From positions 1 to 26,311 of the IMG/VR virus record IMGVR_UViG_3300031521_000314: a stretch of 26,311 nucleotides of DNA; one strand, written 5' to 3'. The notes beneath the pieces were generated by a model. It saw only the letters and a list, made by a program, of their open reading frames with translations, was not told where the DNA came from and did no database searches. The position numbers and the translations under genes are program-made. The DNA is from a virus. This document shows positions 7,490 to 9,420 of this stretch, one piece after another. Position 1 is the first letter of the stretch, and each line of letters opens with the position of its first letter.

Positions 7490-7530
7490 TAAATTTTTAT
7501 AGTTTTTTGTAACCTTTTCGATTCTCAAAC

Positions 7531-7539
7531 GTATTTATA
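7531..7539 (+). promoter_or_regulatory. GTATTTATA motif (candidate phage late promoter element)
   Basis: GTATTTATA occurs here at the head of the tRNA locus. The same motif recurs upstream of most tail-module transcription units (12283, 18801, 20951, 23875, 24530, with an ATATTTATAAT variant at 22357). The role is inferred only from position and recurrence. Confidence 0.4.
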
Positions 7540-7576
7540 CTCACAAGAAATATTTTATTTTTATTTTCAAAAACAC

Positions 7577-7607
7577 TTGCAAGATAAAAAAAAACAATAT
7601 ACTTTTG
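7577..7607 (+). promoter_or_regulatory. Bacteroidetes-type promoter of the tRNA locus
   Basis: TTG at 7577-7579 and TACTTTTG at 7600-7607 are separated by 20 nt. This matches the Bacteroidetes vegetative sigma arrangement (TTG or TTTG, about 19-21 nt, then TAnnTTTG). Transcription would start near 7612-7616, about 95 nt ahead of the first tRNA. It suggests the RNA locus can be transcribed by unmodified host polymerase. Confidence 0.6.
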
Positions 7608-7656
7608 TACAGTCTTCGGACAAACGTTCTTTTAACAAGATGAAATAAAAAATAAG

Positions 7657-7694
7657 ATGTGATGATATAGGTGAAAATATATCGCTAATCACAT
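7657..7694 (+). other. Structured RNA leader hairpin
   Basis: ATGTGAT (7657-7663) pairs with ATCACAT (7688-7694). An inner helix of GATATA (7664-7669) with TATATC (7678-7683) carries the loop GGTGAAAA, with a one-sided GCTA bulge. It lies in the predicted transcript 12 nt before the first tRNA. Function unknown. Confidence 0.6.
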
Positions 7695-7706
7695 TTAAAA
7701 TAATAT

Positions 7707-7837
7707 GAGAGGGTATGCAAATAATAAACAAAGAATATTTTCGCACTACTCTAACGAGAACTGATAGTATTTTCAGTAAAGGTTCAGCAAATTGTCAGTA
7801 AAACAATCGTATGTTGGTTCAATTCCAACCCCTCTCA
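7707..7837 (+). tRNA. tRNA with a 57-nt D-loop insert (anticodon loop CAGTAAA, Tyr GUA?)
   Basis: A perfect 7-bp acceptor stem is formed by GAGAGGG (7707-7713) and CCCTCTC (7830-7836), with A73 at 7837 and no encoded CCA. The T-arm is GTTGG-TTCAATT-CCAAC (7813-7829). The anticodon arm is ATTGT-CAGTAAA-ACAAT (7791-7807), which places GTA at 34-36, but position 33 is A instead of the near-universal U. The D-stem TGC/GCA pairs 7716-7718 with 7787-7789. Between D-loop position 17 and the GG at 7781-7782 lies an insert, about 7724-7780. It starts near AAACAAAGAATA, contains a CTC/GAG hairpin and ends with the 23-nt motif. Unless the insert is removed, the D-arm is far too long. A bacterial tRNA-Tyr would also normally have a long variable arm, so identity is uncertain. 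Confidence 0.7.
7758..7780 (+). repeat. 23-nt motif, copy 1 (3' end of the first D-loop insert)
   Basis: GAACT, an 11-nt spacer (GATAGTATTTT), then CAGTAAA. The next bases are the GG expected at D-loop positions 18-19. Confidence 0.8.
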
Positions 7838-7846
7838 CACAAAAGG

Positions 7847-7869
7847 AAACTGTCTGTTATTACAGTAAA
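7847..7869 (+). repeat. 23-nt motif, copy 2 (abuts the UUA-anticodon tRNA)
   Basis: AAACT, an 11-nt spacer (GTCTGTTATTA), then CAGTAAA. The spacing equals the other copies. The last five bases overlap the 5' acceptor strand of the following tRNA, and an ACAAAAGG stretch precedes the motif. Confidence 0.7.
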
Positions 7870-7937
7870 ATTAGCTCATTTGGTAGAGCATCCGCCTTTA
7901 ACGCAGAATGTAGTTGGTTCAACTCCAACATTTTTAA
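7865..7937 (+). tRNA. tRNA-like gene with anticodon UUA (ochre suppressor-like or degenerate)
   Basis: The D-arm is GCTC-ATTTGGTA-GAGC (7874-7889), complete with GG. The anticodon arm is TCCGC-CTTTAAC-GCAGA (7891-7907), with a C.A mismatch in the stem. The T-arm is GTTGG-TTCAACT-CCAAC (7913-7929). The loop places TTA at 34-36, which would read UAA. The acceptor stem GTAAAAT/ATTTTTA fails at its two terminal pairs, exactly where the 5' strand is supplied by the end of the 23-nt motif. UAA is the commonest stop in this window, so efficient ochre suppression is unlikely. It may be a decayed tRNA-Lys with one T lost from the loop, or a tRNA whose true 5' end is made by RNA processing. Confidence 0.65.
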
Positions 7938-7976
7938 AAACAACAATAACAAACGAAATATCCTTTTAAAACATAT

Positions 7977-8050
7977 TGCGAGGTAGAGCAGCTGGTCAGC
8001 TTGTGAGATTCATAATCTCAAGGTCGTGGGTTCGAATCCCTCTCTCGCTA
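7977..8050 (+). tRNA. Initiator tRNA-fMet(CAU)
   Basis: The acceptor strands G7978-G7983 and T8043-C8048 pair, while positions 1 and 72 (T7977 and T8049) do not. A 1-72 mismatch is the hallmark of bacterial initiator tRNA. The D-arm GAGC-AGCTGGTCA-GCTT, the anticodon arm TGAGA-TTCATAA-TCTCA (anticodon CAT), the variable loop AGGTC and the T-arm GTGGG-TTCGAAT-CCCTC follow the initiator pattern. A73 is at 8050 and no CCA is encoded. It carries no insert, unlike several neighbours. A phage-supplied initiator tRNA could support translation initiation when host RNA is being degraded. Confidence 0.88.
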
Positions 8051-8137
8051 CACTGATAATCAGATAGTTATCTAATTTTTAGTAATTGTCTGATGAAAAT
8101 ATTGATTAACTCAGGTCGGCATACACTCCGATTAAAT

Positions 8138-8156
8138 ATCATGCGAGGAGCATGAT
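8138..8156 (+). other. Perfect 7-bp hairpin upstream of motif copy 3
   Basis: ATCATGC (8138-8144) and GCATGAT (8150-8156) close a GAGGA loop. Just upstream TCGG (8116-8119) can pair with CCGA around CATACACT. This is part of a structured stretch between tRNA-fMet and the third motif copy; function unknown. Confidence 0.6.
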
Positions 8157-8183
8157 GGTTGAAATAATCTTAACAAAAACGAA

Positions 8184-8206
8184 GAACTGATAGTGTTTAC
8201 AGTAAA
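8184..8206 (+). repeat. 23-nt motif, copy 3
   Basis: GAACT, GATAGTGTTTA, CAGTAAA, preceded by TTAACAAAAACGA. It is followed by a T-arm-like hairpin GTTG-TTCAAAA-CAAC (about 8214-8228), then an AAACAAATACT stretch that resembles the 5' end of the D-loop inserts. Confidence 0.75.
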
Positions 8207-8280
8207 AATTGATGTTGTTCAAAACAACTAAACAAATACTAACAAACTTCTTCATTTTTTATCGTTCTTTATAATAATAT

Positions 8281-8416
8281 GGCAGGATAGCAAAGTAAAT
8301 TAACAAAGAATACTATTCCAATACTCTTCAACAAGAGAACTTTTAGTGTTTCCAGTAAAAGGTAATGCAATTGTGTTGAAAACAATCAAACGTTGGTTCA
8401 ATTCCAACTCCTGCCA
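8281..8416 (+). tRNA. tRNA with a 63-nt D-loop insert (anticodon UGA by position)
   Basis: Acceptor strands GGCAGGA (8281-8287) and TCCTGCC (8409-8415) pair perfectly; A73 is at 8416. The anticodon arm is ATTGT-GTTGAAA-ACAAT (8370-8386) with U33 and TGA at 34-36. The T-arm is GTTGG-TTCAATT-CCAAC (8392-8408). Removing about 8298-8360 leaves a textbook D-arm: stem GCAA/ATGC and loop AGTA-GG-TA. The removed piece starts near TTAACAAAGAATACT, contains a CTCT/AGAG hairpin (8324-8337) and ends with the 23-nt motif. AGTAAA occurs at both insert ends. UGA would read serine codon UCA, but there is no long variable arm and position 73 is A, so amino-acid identity is doubtful. Its layout is homologous to the tRNA at 7707-7837. 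Confidence 0.75.
8337..8359 (+). repeat. 23-nt motif, copy 4 (3' end of the second D-loop insert)
   Basis: GAACT, TTTAGTGTTTC, CAGTAAA. The insert ends one base later, before the GG of the D-loop. Its first bases also form the 3' strand of the CTCT/AGAG hairpin. Confidence 0.8.
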
Positions 8417-8452
8417 CAAAATTCCCATTAGTCCCTGTAGTAATACAAACTC

Positions 8453-8567
8453 TTGGGTAATGAAATAGGATGTCGTACATCCGAATTTACGCTTGAGGAC
8501 AACCCAACTAAAGAAAGTAGAAATACTTTCATGGATGACAGACTCAGAAATGAGATACTAAAAAGTA
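8453..8567 (+). ncRNA. Compact structured RNA with three tetraloop hairpins
   Basis: TTGGGT (8453-8458) pairs with ACCCAA (8502-8507) and encloses the hairpin GGATGT-CGT-ACATCC (8468-8482). Then come GAAAGTA-GAAA-TACTTTC (8513-8530), CTCA-GAAA-TGAG (8543-8554) and TACT-AAAA-AGTA (8556-8567). GACAACCC...CTAAA followed by ACAGACT faintly recalls the Q and R core segments of T4-type group I introns. However, I cannot build a convincing P7, so a ribozyme is only a possibility. It lies upstream of the permuted tRNA-Lys. Confidence 0.55.
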
Positions 8568-8632
8568 GTGGTTGATTGAGACAAGAAATATTAAATGTTT
8601 AACATTAATTTATACGGTAATGATATTCGGGA

Positions 8633-8655
8633 AAACTTAAAGTGTTTACAGTAAA
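8633..8655 (+). repeat. 23-nt motif, copy 5 (upstream of the permuted tRNA 3' half)
   Basis: AAACT, TAAAGTGTTTA, CAGTAAA. It ends five bases before the T-arm of the permuted tRNA. A stretch ACAAGAAATATT upstream (about 8581-8592) resembles the insert 5' end seen in the D-loop inserts. Confidence 0.75.
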
Positions 8656-8734
8656 AATCGTTGGTTCGAATCCAACTTTATCCCAATGGGATGAATTGAC
8701 AAGCGGTTAAGTCACAAGTCTCTTAAACTTGCAC
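8656..8734 (+). tRNA. Permuted tRNA-Lys(CUU): 3' half precedes 5' half
   Basis: The 3' half comes first: T-arm GTTGG-TTCGAAT-CCAAC (8660-8676), then TTTATCCC-A (8677-8685). Only two bases later the 5' half begins: GGGATGAA (8688-8695), D-arm GAC-AAGCGGTTAA-GTC (8698-8713), and anticodon arm CAAGT-CTCTTAA-ACTTG (8715-8731) with anticodon CUU. The two halves form an 8-bp acceptor stem (one G.U). The 5' half has no T-arm after it, and I find no good 5' half in front of the T-arm. The mature cloverleaf requires joining the variable-loop ends (CAC at 8732-8734 to AAAATC at 8654-8659) and cutting between the acceptor strands. Motif copy 5 abuts the 3' half, and an AACAAATACT stretch follows the 5' half. 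Confidence 0.75.
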
Positions 8735-8915
8735 AAACAAACAACAAATACTTTTACAATATTCCCTAATTTATTTTTTAGTTGTTGGCATCAGAGTTTT
8801 TTAATAAAACAGGGCATGCCACCTAACATTTGAAGTGTTGAAAAATACACGTGGTTAAGAATGGTTTTTATCGGCACTTGTATCGAGTTTATTCAATAAA
8901 AATGAAATTGCTGAA

Positions 8916-8938
8916 GAACTTGTTGTGTATACAGTAAA
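8916..8938 (+). repeat. 23-nt motif, copy 6
   Basis: GAACT, TGTTGTGTATA, CAGTAAA. No recognisable tRNA piece follows; instead a strong hairpin begins at 8945. Confidence 0.7.
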
Positions 8939-8944
8939 TTGAAA

Positions 8945-8971
8945 TTTGTCACCCATGAGTGGTGACACAAA
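8945..8971 (+). other. Strong hairpin after motif copy 6
   Basis: GTCACC (8948-8953) and GGTGAC (8961-8966) close the loop CATGAGT; an outer TTT/AAA helix continues past an AC bulge. No T-run follows, so it is not a terminator. It may be the functional RNA domain attached to motif copy 6. Confidence 0.6.
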
Positions 8972-8989
8972 CTTATAGGAATACAGCAG

Positions 8990-9023
8990 AACTTCTTCTC
9001 TTATTAGAGAAAAGTTGTTTTTT
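8990..9023 (+). terminator. First terminator of the RNA locus
   Basis: AACTT-C-TTCTC (8990-9000) pairs with GAGAA-AAGTT (9007-9016), with one bulged C and loop TTATTA, followed by TTTTTT at 9018-9023. Confidence 0.8.
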
Positions 9024-9037
9024 ACAATGAAAAAATG

Positions 9038-9085
9038 GACGGGGAGCATAAAATAGAAATATTTTATCTTTTCCCGTCTTTTTTT
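9038..9085 (+). terminator. Second terminator of the RNA locus
   Basis: GACGGGGA (9038-9045) pairs with TTCCCGTC (9071-9078). The inner helix ATAAAATA/TATTTTAT is closed by a GAAA tetraloop (9056-9059). Seven T residues follow. Two terminators in tandem isolate the RNA locus from the downstream genes. Confidence 0.88.
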
Positions 9086-9144
9086 ATCTTTTTTTGTAAC
9101 ATTTGGGTATACTTAAACGTATATAGGATATTAAATAAAAAATC

Positions 9145-9420
9145 ATGAAAAGAACTAAGTATGGATTTGAGGTTGAGGGCAAGGGAATGTATGCCCAAGA
9201 ACAAGTAAAATATGAATACAGGTATACGAATGATATCGAAAAAGCCTTTGGTGTTTACGATATTTTCCTGCTTATGAATAAACATGAATATAATGTTTGC
9301 TGTGGTAAATACGGAAAGGATAATGTCAGAATTTTTAGTTTTGATGTTGAGACGATTGTCGATAATAAGGTTATTATTGAAACGCCACCGAAAAGAACTA
9401 AATATTACGACCCTAATTAA
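9145..9420 (+). CDS. Small unknown protein (91 aa)
   Basis: I do not recognise this protein. It is hydrophilic and rich in charged and aromatic residues, with no signal peptide or membrane segment. The middle part (EKAFGVYDIFLLMNKHEYN) looks helical, and the end (ETPPKRTKYYDPN) is basic. It is the first gene after the RNA-locus terminators and lies 38 nt before the vWA gene, so it may be co-transcribed with it. The frame has sensible codon use and fills the gap, which is the main reason for calling it. Confidence 0.65.
   Translation: MKRTKYGFEVEGKGMYAQEQVKYEYRYTNDIEKAFGVYDIFLLMNKHEYNVCCGKYGKDNVRIFSFDVETIVDNKVIIETPPKRTKYYDPN

Follow-up and report, generated by a model that had tools for sequence, protein, structure and literature searches.

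Two tRNA genes in a viral DNA record are interrupted within the D-loop by inserts that share a sequence pattern, and the question they raise is what these inserts are and whether they are spliced out. The window, meaning the whole stretch of DNA analysed, is 26,311 nt long (IMG/VR record IMGVR_UViG_3300031521_000314, positions 1 to 26,311) and encodes UvsX-like, 5′–3′ exonuclease and DnaB-like proteins. The DnaB-like gene is followed by a non-coding array at 7490–9140 that contains six copies of one RNA element.

A first-pass annotation had drawn attention to the two inserts, and both do contain the same element, but it missed that there are six copies, four of them inside out, and that one tRNA is permuted. 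We describe here the element, the tRNAs and hairpins associated with it, and their conservation among related phages. Comparative sequence evidence leads us to propose that the element is probably a new small tRNA intron or joining element, which would be cut from a polycistronic transcript and whose exons would be sealed by an RNA ligase.

The array and its phages

Related large phages contribute about 45 IMG/VR loci with the array, collected by scans with the element motif and with the DnaB protein, and in the related loci it again lies 3′ of a DnaB-like gene. All window coordinates given below are on the plus strand. A promoter-like sequence of Bacteroidota type, TTG-N20-TACTTTTG, lies 5′ of the array at 7577–7607. 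Of 39 loci, 32 have 5′ of the array the general form TTG-N17..21-TANNTTTG, which we take to be a Bacteroidota-type promoter; shuffling leads one to expect 1.45. The array phages are probably a family of large phages infecting Bacteroidota, a host that we infer rather than observe, since the promoter assignment draws on general knowledge. A terminator-like GC hairpin with a T-run, read from the sequence, appears to close the array at 9036–9098; a consensus scan did not report a terminator there.

The large phage contigs have one cluster of exact element matches per phage. A mobile repeat acting at the DNA level was considered and rejected, since the large phage contigs searched have no exact copy elsewhere than in the array. 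Among GTDB genomes there were no exact matches to the slot-e pattern (slots are the positions in the array, lettered below) and no relatives of the dnaB gene. Among the GenBank phage matches listed, the only matching part is the tRNA-Met region. This ordinary, initiator-like tRNA-Met (CAU) is found by ARAGORN at 7977–8051 and scores 57.2 bits with Rfam; nearly all relatives have it after dnaB (L014 and L040 contain equivalents), and in some of them its copy has a long variable arm.

Several other features of the array vary between phages. Loci L053 and L054 encode the same DnaB-like protein, and L054 lacks slots c–f, a natural absence of the element; L054 retains tRNA-Met and two conserved modules. 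One non-coding module, GGUUGUUGGUAUCAG...ACCUAACAUUUGA...GGUUAAGAAUGGUUUUUAUC, lies at ∼8776–8880 of the window, ∼11340–11470 of L054 and ∼10190–10330 of L017, and occurs also in relatives without slots c–f. The second, a hairpin module UUGUCCCUGUGGCAACACAAACUU, lies at ∼8420–8470 of the window and is present in L011, L008, L009 and L053; its position in the array varies from phage to phage. A gene for a SegE-like GIY-YIG endonuclease is found between slots d and e in L023 (10450–11091) and, with a match below cut-off, in L018 (10716–11327).

Architecture of the element

The element consists of two strands. The left (L) strand has the form P1 (5 bp)-AAC-N4-P2 (7 bp)-N-CAGUAA and the right (R) strand an A-rich segment, P2′ (7 nt), 9 nt and P1′ (5 nt), such that helices P1 and P2 flank a fixed 7 × 9 nt internal loop and the CAGUAA strand lies opposite the A-rich strand. 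Allowing up to three mismatches, the motif matches the window nine times against 0.56 expected, a count reached by none of 100 shuffles. Six of the nine matches are genuine copies, all on the plus strand between 7758 and 8938, and the motif that ends the inserts is absent from the rest of the window. No Rfam family covers the element at either strict or lenient settings.

Among the related loci, 45 yielded 173 elements whose second strand was located by pairing; a few of the lone elements are chance matches. The P2′–P1′ distance is 9 nt in 161 of the 173, a spacing already prominent in the first search, which permitted 3–12. AAC and CAG hardly vary, if at all, among 137 non-redundant elements, a conservation partly built in by a search pattern that contained both and permitted two or three mismatches. 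Position 8 of the 9-nt loop is U in 136 of the 137, and P1 differs in sequence among most slots yet is always complementary; these two observations (P1 complementarity in five slots) are less subject to search bias, though the right strand was itself picked by pairing. The alignments of individual slots, made with MAFFT without structure, provide a cleaner test of pairing.

The element occurs in two topologies. In the closed form (slots A and d) it is capped by a hairpin and contained within a tRNA D-loop; in the inside-out form (slots a, c, e and f) it is open at P1 and brackets another RNA.

tRNAs interrupted in the D-loop

The two tRNAs with D-loop inserts lie at 7707–7837 (slot A) and 8281–8416 (slot d), as the first-pass annotation had placed them, and their acceptor stems are indeed perfect, with 7 of 7 pairs between GAGAGGG (7707–7713) and CCCTCTC (7830–7836) in the former and between GGCAGGA (8281–8287) and TCCTGCC (8409–8415) in the latter. 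Both had also been said to have normal T- and anticodon arms. This holds for the T-arms, each of 5 bp with a TTCAATT loop, and for the slot d anticodon arm (anticodon UGA, loop GUUGAAA), but not for slot A, whose anticodon loop CAGUAAA lacks U33. Slot d is supported by a 24-sequence alignment with an RNAalifold consensus; slot A has equivalents in about eight other loci.

Each insert comprises AACAAAGAATA, a short hairpin and GAACT-N11-CAGTAAA, as originally described; sequence alone gives its boundaries only approximately, since an A-rich linker makes up the 5′ side. The intron-like insert of slot A (7725–7780; covariance model R2, 56.8 bits) contains P2′ GAATATT of the R strand at 7733–7739 and L strand GAACTGATAGTATTTTCAGTAAA at 7758–7780. 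That of slot d (8298–8360; model R2, 69.6 bits) contains P2′ GAATACT (8308–8314), P1′ CTCTT (8324–8328) and the L strand (8333–8359). A search for further tRNAs of this kind, proposed in the first-pass annotation, yielded the slot A equivalents and 25 homologous slot-d tRNAs; all 25 carry the insert, in a set retrieved via the element from which an insert-free homologue could escape.

On the native window ARAGORN called neither interrupted tRNA, finding only a UUA tRNA at 7866–7937 and the tRNA-Met, to which Rfam added only the 3′ part of the slot d tRNA. When the D-loop insert was deleted by script, ARAGORN recognised 22 of 26 tRNAs, against one, spurious, of 26 left intact. In two near-identical contigs (L077 and, on the reverse strand, L081) about 1 kb of foreign DNA lies inside the slot-d insert, with tRNA halves that are intact and complementary. 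Together with the covarying structure, the ARAGORN result and the tolerated insertion partly support an undescribed small intron, the better of the two readings first offered; the other, a D-loop extension retained in the mature RNA, is an alternative to splicing that is compatible with the same data.

Tertiary pair 15–48 of slot d is A-U in 18 sequences, G-C in two (one being the window) and U-U in four. The slot-d insert also contains a segment complementary to the 5′ acceptor strand and U8-A9 of the same tRNA (alignment A2, columns 34–40 × 4–10), with 94% of cells paired and compensatory change at three pairs, a cell count reached by two of 500 shuffles. We would guess that this segment may hold the 5′ exon during transcription.

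The permuted tRNA of slot e

Slot e opens with the L strand, followed by the T-arm and 3′ acceptor, a spacer of 5–22 nt, 5′ acceptor, D-arm, anticodon arm and R strand, so that in the 36 aligned copies the 3′ half lies upstream of the 5′ half of a single cloverleaf, the arrangement of a circularly permuted tRNA. In the window the L strand (8629–8655) begins with P1 GGGAA (8629–8633), contains a GAACT-like motif and ends with CAGTAAA at 8655. The 3′ tRNA half (8656–8683) follows, with the end of the variable loop, the T-arm and the 3′ acceptor strand TTTATCC (8677–8683). The 5′ half (8689–8731) starts with the 5′ acceptor strand GGATGAA (8689–8695) and runs through the D-arm and the anticodon arm. 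The R strand (8740–8766) opens with AACAAC and contains P2′ AAATACT (8746–8752), 9 nt and P1′ TTCCC (8762–8766).

Across the permutation the two acceptor strands are fully paired (7 of 7) in every one of the 36 rows; the 37 copies have 20 different acceptor pairs between them. Over the whole alignment 98.4% of cells are paired and 22 pairs show two-sided (compensatory) change; cells with such change number 180 against 52.5 in shuffles, and none of 500 shuffles is as high. Shifting the partners by 1–3 columns as a control lowers pairing to 40–55%. The tertiary pair 15–48 is G-C in 32 copies and A-U in four, both sides switching in step. RNAalifold, unprompted, returns P1, P2 and the whole cloverleaf, and the window's 8689–8731 folded alone gives the same structure (z −3.09).

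Once joined, the halves have a tRNA T-loop, GG in the D-loop and the 15–48 pair. ARAGORN recognises the joined halves in 37 of 37 copies and the native order in none, and tRNA finders accordingly miss many tRNAs of the array phages. It is the covariation, not ARAGORN, that provides the strong evidence for slot e, because ARAGORN still accepts 119 of 179 non-cognate pairs made by swapping halves between phages. CCA is encoded directly after the discriminator base in 24 of the 37 permuted copies, and therefore a free 3′ end is probably made; seven copies, including that of the window, have only a 5-nt CAAUG or CAGUG spacer without encoded CCA. The layout of the permuted tRNA also explains a weak, sub-threshold Rfam match to tmRNA_permuted at its position in L008. 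Comparative sequence analysis gives good support to the permuted tRNA fold, as it does to the element and the array.

Inside-out copies in slots a, c and f

Slot a (7841–7967; 30-sequence alignment) has the element inside out around the complete UUA tRNA, with the L strand at 7841–7869 and an R strand containing P2′ AATAACA (7945–7951) and P1′ TCCTTTT (7961–7967). In its alignment 99% of P1 cells and 91% of P2 cells are paired, with compensatory changes at three pairs. The anticodon of the slot-a tRNA differs between phages and includes stop anticodons, UUA in the window and UCA in several others; acceptor stems of these tRNAs are shortened and overlap CAG.

Slots c and f bracket hairpins. Slot c (8181–8253; 27-sequence alignment, fold z −2.6) surrounds a short hairpin that in most relatives is an anticodon-arm mimic of 5 bp with a 7-nt loop such as CGGUAAA; its P2 covaries, with a score reached by none of 500 shuffles. 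Slot f (8913–8999; 30-sequence alignment, fold z −2.1) surrounds a conserved hairpin, TTGAAATTTG...CCACCC...GGTGG...

Proposed mechanism

If our proposal is right, transcription from one promoter to one terminator would give a non-coding RNA of 1.4–1.5 kb, in which the element would mark sites of cleavage and of joining of the outer ends. From the D-loops of slots A and d it would be excised as an intron of ∼55–63 nt, and in slots a, c, e and f the same reaction would excise and close the bracketed RNA, presumably through circular intermediates. For the permuted tRNA of slot e this would link the anticodon half with the T-arm half, and the spacer could then be removed via ordinary tRNA end processing. 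No other reading is as economical as cutting and joining, since either of the two opposite topologies would then restore tRNAs by means of a single element.

Catalysis might come from the RNA itself or from a nuclease, of the phage or of the host, together with a phage RNA ligase. Each of the eight contigs of 150 kb or more that contain the array encodes an RNA ligase (PF09511 and/or PF09414 over cut-off), and five of them also a kinase-type AAA_33 domain over cut-off. The ligase is permissive rather than diagnostic, since of three relatives of 200 kb or more that lack the array, two encode one as well. That the element is a self-splicing ribozyme of two strands and ∼50 nt, in a natural permuted intron–exon form that makes circular RNAs and permuted tRNAs, we regard as possible but doubtful; if true, it would be a catalytic intron class separate from group I and group II. 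Known small self-cleaving ribozymes gave no Rfam matches up to E 5 in the window at 7490–9150. A hammerhead, suggested by a CUGAUGA-like stretch in some copies, was rejected: CUGA is not conserved and its bases are partly paired in P2.

Alternative explanations

The element might instead be a handle, a retained stalk that binds protein or scaffolds tRNA-like and hairpin domains, making the array a large structural or decoy RNA and slot e a two-piece tRNA kept together by the stalk. A tertiary fold or a bound protein would suit the rigid geometry (fixed P2 length, 7 × 9 loop), what slots c and f enclose are plain hairpins rather than tRNAs, and the loss of U33 in many copies and the anticodon-arm mimic of slot c suit decoys. 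We nevertheless consider retention rather unlikely: the encoded CCA and the 15–48 covariation of slot e suit a tRNA that is matured, and the ∼1-kb insertion in L081 and L077 separates two tRNA halves that are both intact.

Splicing of the archaeal/eukaryal type, with a tRNA splicing endonuclease cutting at bulge–helix–bulge (BHB) sites and RtcB sealing, would account for odd intron positions and permuted genes, both known in such systems (PMC3978253, PMC9602550). It is very improbable here and largely refuted, since the BHB geometry (two 3-nt bulges, 4-bp helix between) is present in the canonical register in none of 150 elements, EndA (PF01974) in none of 11 phage contigs, with archaeal controls positive, and RtcB over cut-off in none of 12. 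That the insert is a cut-down group I or group II intron is scarcely credible. Both groups occur in phages (group II: PMC12350094) and group I is the class to which the known bacterial tRNA introns belong (PMC4090602), but inserts of 55–63 nt are far below the size of either core, and Rfam finds neither catalytic core in the array up to E 5, only tRNA and noise, which refutes a complete intron. Functionless, decaying tRNA pseudogenes broken up by a repeat would fit slot c, which resembles a tRNA eroded to its anticodon arm, and the relative with identical dnaB that lacks slots c–f. Against such decay, which we hold to be highly improbable, stand the strong compensatory change in stems, also across the permutation, which refutes it for slots d and e, and the retention of slots in diverged phages.

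Possible functions and significance

U33 is kept in 28 of 31 slot-a, 20 of 25 slot-d and 20 of 37 slot-e tRNAs; the permuted tRNAs may not decode, because U33 is absent in 17 of 37. Anticodons vary widely, and slot d retains UGA yet has no long variable arm. The array tRNAs could possibly serve translation, act as decoys for anticodon nucleases, or both, a defence role being only a guess.

Should joining be confirmed, these phages would have a tRNA splicing system unlike those of group I, group II or the archaeal/eukaryal type, and the first viral permuted tRNA genes that our literature search could find. Permuted and interrupted tRNAs would then have arisen again, with a different junction, and the element would be a compact natural tool for making circular RNA. 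Such confirmation would also bear on the purpose of phage tRNAs with altered anticodon loops.

Comparison with known systems

Atypical tRNA introns of the alga Cyanidioschyzon merolae depend on the protein splicing machinery of BHB-type sites. Found in D-, anticodon and T-arms (PMC9602550), they are like the phage inserts in being short and in lying outside the usual anticodon position, and the phage element differs from them in structure. Group I introns of bacterial tRNAs also interrupt tRNA genes, but they lie in the anticodon region, exceed 200 nt and have a catalytic core that is missing from the phage element.

Lak megaphages, very large phages of Bacteroidota hosts as the array phages probably are, also have unexplained tRNA introns (Devoto 2019, PMC6784885); however, ARAGORN places the Lak-A1 inserts that it calls in the anticodon loop, and no exact match to the element motif occurs in those tRNA regions of Lak-A1 that were read. 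Altered anticodon loops have been proposed to let phage tRNAs escape anticodon nucleases (PMC10264068). These tRNAs (PMC10264068, PMC11555353) share with the array variable anticodon loops and RNA ligase and kinase genes in the genome, but unlike the array tRNAs they are uninterrupted.

A 2014 count of permuted tRNA genes gave 34, spread over six algae and one archaeon, and their junctions can form BHB motifs (PMC3978253); the literature searched, with subscription papers mostly outside its coverage, yielded none from a phage or bacterium. Slot e resembles known permuted genes (Chan 2011, PMC3218864) in having the 3′ half upstream, a short spacer between the acceptor ends and mutually pairing sequences that flank the halves, and the circular intermediate known there is one that we infer for the phage array. 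It differs from them (PMC3218864) in a junction that lies between the anticodon and T stems and is not a BHB, without EndA, and in an element that is found also in D-loops and around hairpins that are not tRNAs.
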